Shown piece by piece: positions 2,769 to 11,538 of a stretch of DNA of 11,615 nucleotides. This DNA comes from a bacterium (lineage in GTDB: Bacteria; Coprothermobacterota; Coprothermobacteria; Coprothermobacterales; JAADFF01): contig JAMORD010000034.1 of NCBI GenBank assembly GCA_027063755.1, positions 1 to 11,615 of the forward strand, given 5' to 3'. The notes below the pieces were generated by a model. That model saw only the letters and a program-made list of their open reading frames with translations. It was not told the origin of the DNA and did no database searches. The position numbers were made by a program, and so were the translations under genes. Every line of letters begins with the position of its first letter. Positions within the stretch are counted from its first letter, which is position 1.

Positions 2769-4646
2769 ATGAAGGTTATAGGTAGGAGAGGGCTTTTAAG
2801 AGATGTGTTTGATATTAAGTATCACGGAGGATATTTCTACCTTGCTGCATCGTGGCGTGATCCTATAGATGGTGAGAGTATGCGTTCGGGGCTTGTTAGA
2901 CTTCATGTTGATGAAGATTTGTCCACGGATATTGAATATTTAATAAGTGGCAAAGAGGCGTATAAGGTAGAGATATCCGATGAGTTTCTTGTGCTCTCCG
3001 GAACAGGTTTGTGGATATATGGCCGCAAAGGAGATGAGTTTGTTCCCCTGAAGGAAGAAGTCGGAACGCTTGTTGTTGATATTAAGCTAGTTGGTAATCT
3101 TGTGCTGGCTGTTGTGGGTAGTGTGTTTAGCACCTATCTTGTGGTATATCAGATTACCTCACATGGTGTTGAAGATGTGGGTATTTTCTTTGATGAGAAT
3201 ATGTCAGGACTATTTGTTATTAGTGATACTTATGTTGCTGTTCGCTCAGGTAGTGATGTTATTATTCTTGATATATCCGATCCCGCTAATATTAAGCAGG
3301 TAGATAGATATGATGATATAGGCATTTTACTTGCATCACAATCTCCCGGTATGGCTGTTTTAAAGAAAGATAACAATCTTAGGTTGTGTAAACTTCATGA
3401 GAAAAAGTATCTTGGTATGGTAAAAGATATTGGCGATGTTGTTTCATCTTTTATTGATGGATACACTTTGTATGTTTTAAAAAATACGGGTGAGATTATG
3501 AAATTTTCCCCTGGTGATGATAGGTTTTTGTTTAAGGTAGATGGTTTTCCCACCACCATTTACGAATACGATGGTTTGGTTTTTGTTGGGTTTGAGAACG
3601 AAGGTCTTATGATATGGAAAGAGGATAAACAGAGATGGGTTAAATCTTTTAGTCCTTGGTATGGTGCCATAAGGGAGGAAAATAGAATCTTACTGGGAAC
3701 TGTTGAAGGTGTAGTGGAGTTGGATATTTCTCGTCCTGAAAGGCCTTCAGAGATATCCCGTGTAAAAGGTTTCTGGGCATGGCACCTTGAGAAGAAAGAT
3801 GATTACATATATGTGGGGGGAATATGGTCATCTCGTGGAGGGGAGAATATCATTAAAGAGTTTTTCAAAGGTCGCATACTTTACAATGGTATTGTCATCT
3901 TGAAAAAGGAAGACGAAACACTAAGAGAAGTGAGACGTATAAGGCTTCCTGAGACCAAGTCTTCTTTTACAACATATGATGTTTACATCAAAGATAACCT
4001 ACTGTTTGCTGTGTCCGATGCCGGCATGATTGTTATGGATATCTCTGAGCCCGATAATCCTAAGAGCATATATGAAAAGCGTGGTATACATGTTAGATAT
4101 GTGTGGTTTGAAGAAGATAGGGCTTATGTACACCTATATCCCTCTGGTGATGTCATTATCTTTGATATATCTGGCAATGAGATACAGGAGATAGGTACTG
4201 TCCACGATGTGGGATATATTAAGGTGGGCTACAAGGCATTTGGGGGCAGAAGTGGTATTAGATATATTTCCACATCAGATGGTGGTCTCAAGGTTATTGG
4301 TGGTCTTGATGTTGGTATGGTTGAAGATGGCACTACCGATGGTAAGCGATTGTATGTCTCTTCTTATGATGAAGACAAGCATAAACTGTGGATCATAGAT
4401 GGTAGTAATGTGGAGGAATATGAAGTGCCCCATCTAAAAAATCTTCTATATAAGAACGGGTATCTCTATGCTTCAGCTCAGGTAGGAGGCAAGGAGTGGG
4501 ATATTGTCAAATATGATGTATCCAGAGATCTTAAAGAGGTTGAGCGTATCAAGGATATGGGAGATATTTTCAACTACGCTATGTGGGTAGGAGATTACCT
4601 TTATTTCTTAGACGGTAGGCGCGGTGTTGCCATATTGGAGGTATAG
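2769..4646 (+). CDS. Large cytoplasmic beta-propeller repeat protein (LVIVD-like)
   Basis: A 625-residue protein with no assigned function. It is built from repeats of about 40 residues with the pattern short hydrophobic strand, D/G turn, 'hxYhh' strand, then 'hhhhDIS.P..P'. The clearest DIS turns have their Asp at residues 168, 319, 424 and 466, each resembling the LVIVD propeller repeat. By eye I count about 14 repeats over the whole length, which would suit two seven-bladed propellers; this count is an estimate. The longest insertion, near residues 345-375 (ISRVKGFWAW onward to NGIVILKK), interrupts one repeat. There is no signal peptide or membrane helix, so it is predicted to be cytoplasmic, although most LVIVD proteins I know of are exported. 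The start ATG has GGGGAG at 2755-2760. Its stop lies 3 nt before sua5, whose ribosome binding site is inside this gene, so the two are probably translated together. The role is likely a binding scaffold. Confidence 0.85.
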   Translation: MKVIGRRGLLRDVFDIKYHGGYFYLAASWRDPIDGESMRSGLVRLHVDEDLSTDIEYLISGKEAYKVEISDEFLVLSGTGLWIYGRKGDEFVPLKEEVGTLVVDIKLVGNLVLAVVGSVFSTYLVVYQITSHGVEDVGIFFDENMSGLFVISDTYVAVRSGSDVIILDISDPANIKQVDRYDDIGILLASQSPGMAVLKKDNNLRLCKLHEKKYLGMVKDIGDVVSSFIDGYTLYVLKNTGEIMKFSPGDDRFLFKVDGFPTTIYEYDGLVFVGFENEGLMIWKEDKQRWVKSFSPWYGAIREENRILLGTVEGVVELDISRPERPSEISRVKGFWAWHLEKKDDYIYVGGIWSSRGGENIIKEFFKGRILYNGIVILKKEDETLREVRRIRLPETKSSFTTYDVYIKDNLLFAVSDAGMIVMDISEPDNPKSIYEKRGIHVRYVWFEEDRAYVHLYPSGDVIIFDISGNEIQEIGTVHDVGYIKVGYKAFGGRSGIRYISTSDGGLKVIGGLDVGMVEDGTTDGKRLYVSSYDEDKHKLWIIDGSNVEEYEVPHLKNLLYKNGYLYASAQVGGKEWDIVKYDVSRDLKEVERIKDMGDIFNYAMWVGDYLYFLDGRRGVAILEV

Positions 4647-7913: not shown

Positions 7914-9920
7914 TTAAACGAGTGCGGCAATAAATACGAGAGAAATAATGGTGGTCAATTTCATAAGGATATTGAGAGATGGACCGGCTGTATCCTTCAG
8001 CGGATCACCAACAGTATCTCCAACAACGGCTGCCTTGTGGGCTTCGGAACCTTTACCACCTAAGAAGCCAGACTCAATAAGTTTCTTGGCGTTATCCCAT
8101 GCACCACCAGAGTTTGCCATAAATAGGGCAAGGAGGAAGGCTGTTAGTGTCTGACCGGCAAGTGCACCACCGAGGGCCTCTTTACCAGTGGTGAAGAATA
8201 TGAGGAACGGGGCGACGACGGCAATAAGGGCAGGGATAACCATGGCCTTCAGGGCACCCTTAGTGCTGATACGCACACATGATGCATAGTCAGGTTTACC
8301 GGTGCCTTCCATGATACCGGGTATCTCTCTAAACTGTCTTCTAACCTCTTCAACCATTTCTTCTGCGGCCTTAGAGACGGCATTGATAACAAGGGCAGAG
8401 AAGAAGAAGGGAAGCACGCCACCAACGAAGAAACCAAACACAATCTTAGGATCAACAAGGTTCAGCACCTTGATATTGACAGCTTCCTGGTAGGCAGAGA
8501 ACAATGCCAGTGCTGTCAGAGCAGCAGATCCTATGGCAAATCCCTTACCAATAGCGGCTGTTGTATTGCCTAAACTGTCAAGCATGTCTGTGCGCTCTCT
8601 GACCTCTGGTGGCTGGTGAGACATCTCGGCAATACCACCGGCATTGTCGGCAATAGGACCGTATGCATCAACAGACAGGGAGAAACCCAGTGTTGAAAGC
8701 ATGCCGACACCGGCCAGTGCGATACCGTAAAGCCCTGTTAGATTGTATGTCCACAATACGGCAATGGCAATGGCCAATGTGGCAAGCAGTGTAGACTCCA
8801 TACCCACTGCAAGGCCCATGAGAATATTGGTAGCAGGGCCTGTCTGTGAGGCCTCTGCAATTTTTCTAACAGGTTTACGCATGGTGTAGTAGTCTGTTAC
8901 TATACCTATGAAGATACCAGTAAGCAGACCAATAATGGTTGCCCATACCTCATTCATAGATACGCCAAGATATGATTTAACCCAGAATATGAGGCCAATG
9001 AATAATACGGCCACAACACCGTTGCCTATATGGAATACCGATGCTGGATGATATTTTTCAGACTTTGCCAAAATTCTTACGGTAAGAACTGTCAAAAGGG
9101 CTGAAACAAGGCCGATAACAACGACAAATATGGGAAAAGATAGGCCTTTCATGACATCTCCGCCTTGTGATGAGTAATAAGAGTAGCCCAGCAGGAGTGA
9201 TGCCACTGTAGCACCTACATAAGACTCATAAAGGTCTGCCCCCATGCCTGCAATATCGCCAACATTATCACCGACATTGTCTGCAATAACAGCTGGATTT
9301 CTGGGGTCATCTTCGGGAATACCAGCCTCTACCTTACCGACAAGGTCGGCACCCACATCGGCTGCTTTGGTGTATATACCACCACCAACACGGGCAAACA
9401 GGGCAACAAAGGAGGCTCCCATGGAGAAACCACTAAGGACCTTGGCAGCCTCTTTAAGAAAGTCATTCTGCAGATATGGACCATATAAAAGGAGAATAAT
9501 AGATATACCCAATATACCAAAGCTTGATACCATAAGTCCCATAACAGAACCGCCAGTGAATGCAACTCTTAGAGCTTGGCCTATACCCTTCTTGGCCGCT
9601 TCGGTTGTTTTTCCGTTGGCCTCTGTTGCAATATACATGCCTGTATATCCTGCAAGGAGTGATAAAGATGCGCCAAATAAAAATGCCACTGCAACTTTAA
9701 TGTTTAATATCCACCACAGAAGTCCAAATACTACCAGTGCCCATGGCAGTACCACCATGTATTCCTGTCTTAGAAATGCCATGGCACCTTCACGAATAGC
9801 ACTTTGCAGTTCTCTGATTTTTTCATTTTCAACTTTGATGCGGGTGATGTAGATGGCCATGTAAAGTGCGAATAATAGTCCGACAATTGCCGTAATGAGG
9901 CCAATAAGACCAAGGTTCAT
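7914..9920 (-). CDS. hppA: Membrane-bound ion-pumping pyrophosphatase, K+-dependent, probably Na+
   Basis: An integral membrane enzyme of 668 residues, predicted to have about 16 helices, that hydrolyses pyrophosphate and drives ions across the membrane. The catalytic signature is complete: [11 protein letters not shown] (188-198), [19 protein letters not shown] (204-222) and the C-terminal [27 protein letters not shown] (451-460) has Ala and Gly where potassium-independent enzymes have Lys and Thr, so it should need K+. Glu232 in ADLYESY sits where sodium-pumping PPases such as the Thermotoga enzyme have it, four residues before the plant proton-pump glutamate; sodium transport is therefore likely but not proven. 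The frame is open from 9926, but GGAGG at 9934-9930 is only 3 nt from that ATG and 9 nt from the ATG at 9920, so 9920 is chosen. It diverges from the PTP-MazG gene. Confidence 0.95.
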
Positions 9921-9944
9921 AAACATTCACCTCCATGTGCATAT

Positions 9945-10013: not shown

Positions 10014-10049
10014 GGCATAGAATGTAGAGTTATACGGAGGTGAACAGGT

Positions 10050-11291
10050 GTGAATACATTTGATATAGATTTACTAAACTTTTCTTGGCTGGAGGAAGGG
10101 GTAATTGCCGGCAGTGCCAAACCGTCACTTCCCAGCCATTGGGGGTATATAAAAAATCAGGGGATAAGGGCCGTTGTATCTTTGACAGAAAAACCCCTTG
10201 ATAGTTATGCCCTTTCTCAGATGGGAATATCACCTCGCAATTATCTTCATCTACCCATAAAGGATATGTCTGTGCCTGAAGAATATCAGGTATGGGAGTT
10301 TCTTGAGTTTGTGTGGCGTAAGCGCTCTCAAGGGGCGCCTGTCCTTGTGCACTGCGGTGCCGGTGTGGGACGCACAGGCACCATGCTTGCTTTTTACCTT
10401 AAGAGTCTTGGATATACCGGTGATAGGGCTATTATGGAGGTAAGAAAGAAAAGACCCGGTAGTATAGAAACTCCACAGCAGGAAGACTTTATAAGGAAAC
10501 TTGATGTAGAGGATTTTTGGAATGATGCCCCAGAGCCGTATTGGTATTTGCGTATACGCACTATTGTGCATATCTTGAGAAAAGAATGTCCGTGGGATAG
10601 GAAGTTGACTCCTCAGATGCTTGTGGCACTGTCTCAAGAGGAACTTATAGAGCTCATGAATGCCATTGCAGAGGGTGATATAGAAGAGTATGCAGGTGAA
10701 ATAGGAGATGTATTGCTACACTTACTTCTTCATGTGACCATTGCTGAAGAGAAAAAGCAGTTTGACATGATAACAGTTATCAAGAAAGAGGCCTATAAGA
10801 TGATAGGTAGACATCCCCATGTGTTTGCTCTTGAAGAAAGCGACGATGCCGCTGCTGTGCTCTCTAAATGGGAGAAGTGGAAAAAGAAGGAGAAAAAAGG
10901 TGAAGAGAAGAAAAAACCCAGACCATCTGCCCTTATATGGGCATTTAGAGTGCAAGACGAGGCTGCCCAATATGGCTTTGACTGGACACGCCTTGAAGAT
11001 GTTATGGATAAGGTAGAAGAAGAGGTTAGAGAGATATGGGAAGCTATAAAGAAAAACGACAAGAAAAATCTTAGAGAAGAGATAGGAGACCTCTTGTTTG
11101 TTGCCGTTAACCTTGCAAGACTGGCAGGTATTGACCCTGAAGGTGCTCTCAGTTATACTACAGAAAAGTTCCGTAGACGTTTTAAGAATATGAAGAAGTT
11201 GGCAGAAGAACGAGGTCTTGACCTGAGAAATATGACACTTGAAGAGATGGAAGAGCTGTATCAGGAGGTAAAAAGACATGAGACTGGATAA
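10050..11291 (+). CDS. Fusion of a DUSP23-like protein phosphatase and two-domain MazG
   Basis: A 413-residue three-part protein. Residues 10-155 form a protein-tyrosine/dual-specificity phosphatase domain: FSWLEEGVIAGSAKP, VVSLTEKP, Asp72 as probable general acid (PIKDMSVP), the P-loop HCGAGVGRTGT with Cys102 and Arg108, and RPGSIETPQQED, closely like DUSP23/VHZ. Residues 165-280 are the first MazG domain (ECPWDRKLTP, EELIE 197-201, EIGD 217-220, RHPHVF 254-259). After a Lys-rich linker (278-291), residues 292-412 are the second MazG domain (EEEVREIWEAI, EEIGDLLF 343-350, KFRRRF). Both MazG domains keep the EExxE...ExxD metal ligands. MazG hydrolyses NTPs to NMP and PPi; the substrate of the phosphatase part is unknown. 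The GTG start has GGAGG 9 nt before it. The last 14 nt overlap rqcP. There is no sign of a frameshift joining two genes. Confidence 0.93.
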   Translation: MNTFDIDLLNFSWLEEGVIAGSAKPSLPSHWGYIKNQGIRAVVSLTEKPLDSYALSQMGISPRNYLHLPIKDMSVPEEYQVWEFLEFVWRKRSQGAPVLVHCGAGVGRTGTMLAFYLKSLGYTGDRAIMEVRKKRPGSIETPQQEDFIRKLDVEDFWNDAPEPYWYLRIRTIVHILRKECPWDRKLTPQMLVALSQEELIELMNAIAEGDIEEYAGEIGDVLLHLLLHVTIAEEKKQFDMITVIKKEAYKMIGRHPHVFALEESDDAAAVLSKWEKWKKKEKKGEEKKKPRPSALIWAFRVQDEAAQYGFDWTRLEDVMDKVEEEVREIWEAIKKNDKKNLREEIGDLLFVAVNLARLAGIDPEGALSYTTEKFRRRFKNMKKLAEERGLDLRNMTLEEMEELYQEVKRHETG

Positions 11292-11538
11292 GTTTATGCA
11301 GCTGTCCCGTATTGTTAAAAGGCGGTCATTGGCAGAGGCCCTCTGTAGAGAGGGGCTTGTATGGGTGAATGGAAAGGTTGCCAAGCCATCTTATCGTGTG
11401 AAGGTAGGCGATAAGATAAAGGTGAGATTGGGACGCTGGATGCTTGAATATGAAGTTGTTGATGTTCCTCCCAATAAACGCATATCTCACGATTATGTCA
11501 AGCTCATCTCCAAAGAAGAGGTGAGCCAGGAGTGGTAG
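11278..11538 (+). CDS. rqcP: RqcP / YabO-type S4-domain RNA-binding protein
   Basis: An 86-residue S4-domain protein: MRLDKFMQLSRIVKRRSLA at 1-19, the VNGKVAKPS turn near 30-38, and VKVGDKIKVRLG (41-52). It matches RqcP (YabO), which binds stalled large ribosomal subunits and helps RqcH add C-terminal alanine tails to unfinished chains. The related heat-shock protein Hsp15 is an alternative, but the short length and the place after a mazG gene are as in Bacillus. The start is set by CAGGAGG at 11262-11268, 9 nt before the ATG and inside the phosphatase-MazG gene, with which it overlaps by 14 nt; translation is probably coupled. RqcH is not in the window, though the alaS gene nearby supplies Ala-tRNA synthesis. 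Confidence 0.9.
   Translation: MRLDKFMQLSRIVKRRSLAEALCREGLVWVNGKVAKPSYRVKVGDKIKVRLGRWMLEYEVVDVPPNKRISHDYVKLISKEEVSQEW

Follow-up and report, generated by a model that had tools for sequence, protein, structure and literature searches.

Described MazG Fusions and Small Cysteine Phosphatases

MazG enzymes convert NTPs to NMPs and PPi, and the mycobacterial enzyme removes 5-OH-dCTP (PMC3855555, PMC10014863). Two-domain members are represented by the E. coli structure 3cra, the NCBIfam equivalog NF007113 and the mycobacterial structure 7yh5. The E. coli protein has no N-terminal domain in front of MazG, and that of M. tuberculosis carries an extra alpha/beta N-terminal region, which the abstract of its report does not term a phosphatase (PMC10014863). 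In mycobacteria, mfd adjoins mazG in a fixed order (PMC3084762). An unrelated enzyme domain in front of MazG is also found in YabN (NF052436), where it is a SAM methylase-like, tetrapyrrole-methylase-like domain. In Bacillus, YabN is also encoded near mfd and an S4 gene. MazG is widespread, and the reason why unrelated N-terminal domains have been acquired repeatedly is a wider question.

The small cysteine phosphatases, such as DUSP23/VHZ, the archaeal SsoPTP and Tk-PTP, and the members of PF22784, share a fold, an HCX5R loop and an aspartate loop, and those solved are small free-standing proteins. In PTP-NADK (PF22741), a similar phosphatase domain is joined to another nucleotide-metabolism enzyme, which is NAD kinase and not MazG.

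The locus described here lies in an 11,615-nucleotide stretch of bacterial DNA (the window), in which a phosphatase of the DUSP23 kind is fused to a two-domain MazG. MazG, small cysteine phosphatases and MazG fusions with other domains are thus known, and the fusion with a phosphatase, its spread over two phyla and the repeated decay of the phosphatase appear to be new. A search of openly accessible papers found none describing any of these three, in agreement with the original prediction, which had considered the combination unusual.

A Cysteine Phosphatase and a Complete MazG in One Reading Frame

The features of the locus, with the evidence for each, were as follows:

7914-9926, minus strand: divergent neighbour, membrane ion-translocating pyrophosphatase of HppA type (H_PPase, 5.4e-263; NCBIfam sodium-translocating pyrophosphatase)
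10036-10042, plus strand: ribosome-binding site GGAGGTG, 7 bases ahead of the GTG start (read directly)
10050-11291, plus strand: PTP-MazG fusion gene, 413 aa, a single unbroken frame (open reading frame; relatives)
10077-10493, plus strand: DUSP23/PTP-SAK-like cysteine phosphatase domain, residues 10-148 (PF22784; 2img, 4erc and 25xa; VIA Z 16.9 to 2img)
10263-10265, plus strand: Asp72, likely general acid (aligns with the D of the 25xa loop lPlpDfsaP)
10350-10376, plus strand: P-loop HCGAGVGRT, of which residues 101-108 are HCGAGVGR (H, C, G and R invariant in ten intact fusions)
10353-10355, plus strand: Cys102 codon (P-loop reading)
10371-10373, plus strand: Arg108 codon (P-loop reading)
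10554-10898, plus strand: MazG N-terminal domain, EExxE at 10638-10652 and ExxD at 10698-10709 (Pfam, NCBIfam, PDB; invariant residues)
10899-11288, plus strand: MazG C-terminal domain, EExxE at 11019-11033 and ExxD at 11079-11090 (Pfam, NCBIfam, PDB; invariant residues)
11278-11538, plus strand: S4-domain RNA-binding protein, with a 14-base overlap with the end of the fusion gene (S4 PF01479, 4.8e-16)

The profile, the fold, the CX5R cysteine and arginine and the putative acid aspartate of the atypical dual-specificity (PTP-SAK) phosphatases were all found in the N-terminal half. Residues 10-148 matched the Pfam PTP-SAK profile PF22784 (E=1.2e-23, 84.3 bits against a cut-off of 27), and the PTP-NADK profile PF22741 matched the same domain (1.1e-11). 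Searches of the PDB matched residues 9-148 to human DUSP23 (2img, E=4.5e-24) and the front half to the bacterial dual-specificity phosphatase 25xa (E=1.1e-24). Moreover, in an AlphaFold model of moderate confidence (mean pLDDT 72, built from 8 rows), residues 2-157 superposed on DUSP23 with a VIA Z of 16.9 and an rmsd of 2.6 A over 148 aligned residues, and PFA-DSP1 was also among the fold matches. His101, Cys102, Gly105 and Arg108 were invariant among the ten intact fusions aligned. Asp72 comes after the nearly invariant Pro69, and its position is occupied by Asp in families f1 (the window genus), f56, f58 and f59, being replaced or shifted in f16, f57 and f60. Judged from these residues, the window genus probably has a catalytically competent phosphatase.

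The remainder of the protein was assigned to MazG by Pfam (PF03819, E=4.7e-33, in two stretches), by the NCBIfam equivalog NF007113 over residues 169-409 (242.7 bits, cut-off 208), by TIGR00444 (216.8, cut-off 148.3) and by a PDB match of residues 169-411 to E. coli MazG 3cra (E=2e-47). The metal-binding residues E197/E198/E201...E217/D220 and E324/E325/E328...E344/D347 were all present and did not vary in comparison with MazGs from other bacteria, so that the window protein shares both motifs with the known two-domain enzymes; E198, E201, E217, D220, E324, E325, E328, E344 and D347 were likewise invariant across 17 diverse members of the fused clan. The window MazG would convert NTPs to NMPs and PPi, by analogy with the known biochemistry of MazG. 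The YabN architecture was rejected, since NF052436, which has a cut-off of 525 bits, reached 233.9 and covered only residues 167-408, which is the MazG part; Pfam listed phosphatase families and no tetrapyrrole-methylase family for the N-terminal half. The original prediction of a DUSP23-like phosphatase with Cys102, Arg108 and a likely acid Asp72, joined in one open frame to two complete MazG domains each with EExxE...ExxD, was therefore confirmed by profile, structure and conservation, its residue numbering included, and all three sites of the protein look catalytically competent.

Distribution in Two Phyla

A search for proteins containing both domains, which had been proposed as a check of the prediction, found the gene in every one of the nine genomes from the window's phylum and in 53 of 54 genomes, representing 21/21 genera, of a second phylum reached via genome G021. 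The two phyla, which we take to be Coprothermobacterota and Caldisericota, respectively, are two groups of mostly heat-loving bacteria. They have been placed near each other (PMC10356935). Among the matches listed from 386 genomes sampled across bacteria, those covering both halves were confined to these two phyla, a sample that rarer cases in other phyla could escape. In both phyla, the N-terminal region of MazG was a phosphatase domain or a recognisable remnant of one, except in two families whose extension could not be recognised, and many full-length fusions of about 400 aa occurred in the second phylum.

A second genome of the window genus, G001, carried the same fusion in one frame at 93% identity, and the gene L002, from a MAG named Dictyoglomota bacterium, encoded the same protein as that of G001. 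The dN/dS between the window and these copies was about 0.05 overall, with values of 0.041 for the phosphatase, 0.030 and 0.095 for the MazG domains and 0.054 for the junction. The G001 copy and the full-length fusions of the second phylum ruled out a fusion unique to the window genome.

In family f56, the fusion was split between the MazG domains in four genomes (L054:1474-2663, L055:1154-2343, L056:1145-2325 and L059:666-1855), into overlapping frames for phosphatase plus MazG-N (277-282 aa) and MazG-C (125-127 aa). In L054 and L055, an ATG inside the overlap points to a second, coupled gene, a frameshift being the alternative.

Repeated Loss of the Phosphatase Residues on a Constant MazG

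In a tree of the MazG halves, the fused proteins were set apart from six outgroup MazGs with support of 96/92, and a larger tree constrained to hold the fused clan as one group was not rejected (p-AU 0.83). By this placement, the MazG halves of the fused proteins are one clade, and their predicted catalytic residues are invariant. The phosphatase residues followed another course. HCX5R was intact in f1, f56, f57, f58, f59 and parts of f60 and f16, with the exception of L050 in f57, in which Phe replaces the P-loop His, and it was gone in f2, f3, f55, most of f16 and part of f60. The MazG tree needed five changes between the intact and degenerate states, of which well-supported branches force four, and the phosphatase site thus appears to have been lost about five times, and at least four, in the fused clan.

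Pfam gave clear phosphatase matches in intact members and none in any of the dead members tested. In comparisons with profiles of the intact second-phylum domains, subset A of f16 reached 99.9%, subset C 99.6% and f60 99.1%, which shows these predicted dead domains to be former phosphatases; subset B of f16 matched weakly (71-91%). The N-domain of the Coprothermobacter-like family f2 is probably a former phosphatase as well, with a profile match of about 90% that includes the linker to MazG. The profile comparison recognised no phosphatase in the N-terminal regions of f3 and f55, so that, together with the linker in the f2 match, the evidence for two of the five losses is domain position and the MazG tree. 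The N-terminal region of f55 was also compared with the extra region of mycobacterial MazG, and the MazG part alone matched convincingly.

The dN/dS of close pairs, obtained from simple counts without confidence limits, separated the two states. In intact lineages, the N-domain evolved at 0.04-0.18 and MazG at 0.05-0.12, a ratio of about 0.6-2.1, whereas in degenerate lineages the N-domain evolved at 0.12-0.62 against 0.03-0.24 for MazG, about 1.3-6 times faster. The phosphatase domain being as slow as MazG where intact, its catalysis seems to be under selection where it is present. The dN/dS of the degenerate N-domains was always below 1 and their frames had no stops, and these remnants probably keep a weaker, structural role.

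Since about five losses of the phosphatase residues left MazG invariant, the phosphatase step cannot be required for MazG function. As far as residues and trees can tell, the phosphatase is a lineage-specific, catalytically optional module on a housekeeping MazG. A two-step enzyme, in which the phosphatase continues the MazG reaction, had been suggested by the original prediction and was not supported in view of these losses; an obligate version of it is unlikely. The fused clan thereby constitutes a natural experiment, in which the front domain is apparently active or dead by lineage and MazG is constant, and its intact and dead members would bear on whether that domain feeds or gates MazG or just supports it.

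Gene Neighbourhood

In f1 and f2, the gene order was the divergent HppA gene, the fusion gene, the S4 protein gene and an M16 peptidase gene. A pyrophosphatase of this type would use PPi such as MazG makes, an adjacency that is suggestive only. In the second phylum, the gene overlapped or directly followed mfd, identified by NCBIfam and encoding the transcription-repair coupling factor, in every family looked at except f56. The fixed mfd-mazG order of mycobacteria parallels this arrangement (PMC3084762), and the fused clan would also bear on whether an mfd-linked MazG belongs to a repair module. In f3, the MazG gene, whose N-domain is dead or replaced, overlapped the enolase gene and had neither S4 nor mfd neighbours (L034:186-2613, L035:1240-3667). 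Within the window, a 625-aa protein encoded at 2769-4646 appeared beta-propeller-like by eye and matched nothing in Pfam or NCBIfam at E 1e-4. Elsewhere in the same genome, outside the window, a gene for a PP2C phosphatase immediately precedes that of a Hanks-type kinase (G000:C40:28990-30284).

Proposed Role of the Fusion and Alternative Explanations

The fusion, the intact residues, the single MazG clade, the repeated losses, the selection pattern and the gene neighbourhood, all seen in sequences and trees, are likely to be jointly explained by a housekeeping MazG to which a phosphatase with a separate substrate was fused before the clan diversified, the phosphatase having decayed in several relatives. 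In this proposal, the reactions themselves, the structural role of the dead domains and the kind of phosphatase substrate, a phosphoprotein or a small phosphate, are what we infer. An N-terminal DUSP23-like cysteine phosphatase would have joined MazG before the MazG clan of the two phyla diversified. The MazG half, an all-alpha NTP pyrophosphohydrolase, would perform a conserved nucleotide-pool job, probably clearing surplus or damaged (d)NTPs. In the window genus, Cys102 would attack the phosphate, Arg108 would bind it and Asp72 would serve as the acid. The phosphatase would act on a separate phospho-substrate, its union with MazG serving co-location or control and not an obligate next step, and in several relatives it would have decayed to an N-terminal domain that no longer catalyses and is retained for its structural contribution. 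The N-domain may also be a candidate sensor of a ligand handled by MazG, as the original prediction had offered as a second reading.

One alternative concerns the origin of the domain, namely that the active phosphatase of the window genus is a later replacement by a free-standing bacterial phosphatase and not the retained ancestral domain. The nearest relatives of this domain were indeed free-standing phosphatases, beside which it branched in the tree, with 52% identity to one in genome G020, against 20-42% among the fused domains of different families. With the long degenerate branches included, a first test weakly rejected one common origin for all fused phosphatase domains (p-AU 0.043); a second, with the degenerate rows left out, did not reject it (p-AU 0.55). 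The remnant retained by the sister family f2 can be aligned with the window domain. The similarity to free-standing phosphatases and these two tests make a later swap in the window genus possible; we regard it as a minority reading, retention being the simpler account. If a swap took place, the count of independent losses would shift by about one.

A specific version of the preferred proposal, in which the domain would be a protein phosphatase that dephosphorylates the substrates of a Hanks-type Ser/Thr kinase and ties this to nucleotide clearing, is tentative to a similar degree. The window genome carries such a kinase (G000:C40, 6.2e-55), and in a comparison spanning 63 genomes, 17 of the 22 that have an intact phosphatase also had the kinase, against 10 of the 33 whose phosphatase is degenerate (Fisher p 0.0009, kinship ignored). 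After correction for kinship, however, about two informative pairs remained, with a median p of 0.5. In addition, the kinase co-occurs with a dead domain in f3 genomes, and f60 genomes that lack the kinase have an intact domain. The kinase gene of G000, G021 and others has a PP2C gene as its immediate neighbour, so that a cognate phosphatase is already there.

A coupled enzyme is improbable, one that would make nucleoside within a single chain as the phosphatase strips the 5'-phosphate from the (d)NMP that MazG releases along with PPi, or else acts on an NTP or alarmone. It would agree with the prediction of both activities in one chain and with PFA-DSP1 as a fold match, given that PTP-fold enzymes acting on non-protein phosphates include RNA 5'-triphosphatases and the inositol-pyrophosphate PFA-DSPs. 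Nevertheless, the phosphatase residues were repeatedly lost with MazG unchanged, and the nearest solved relatives are named as protein phosphatases. We give equally little credence to a further reading, by which the fused phosphatase would work on MazG-handled nucleotides or an alarmone within an mfd-linked genome-maintenance module and its dead versions would act as MazG sensors or brakes. Finally, a sequencing or assembly error merging two genes, named as a possible refutation of the original prediction, can be dismissed almost with certainty, since the same frame occurs in the independent genome G001 and in many genomes of another phylum and purifying selection spans the junction.
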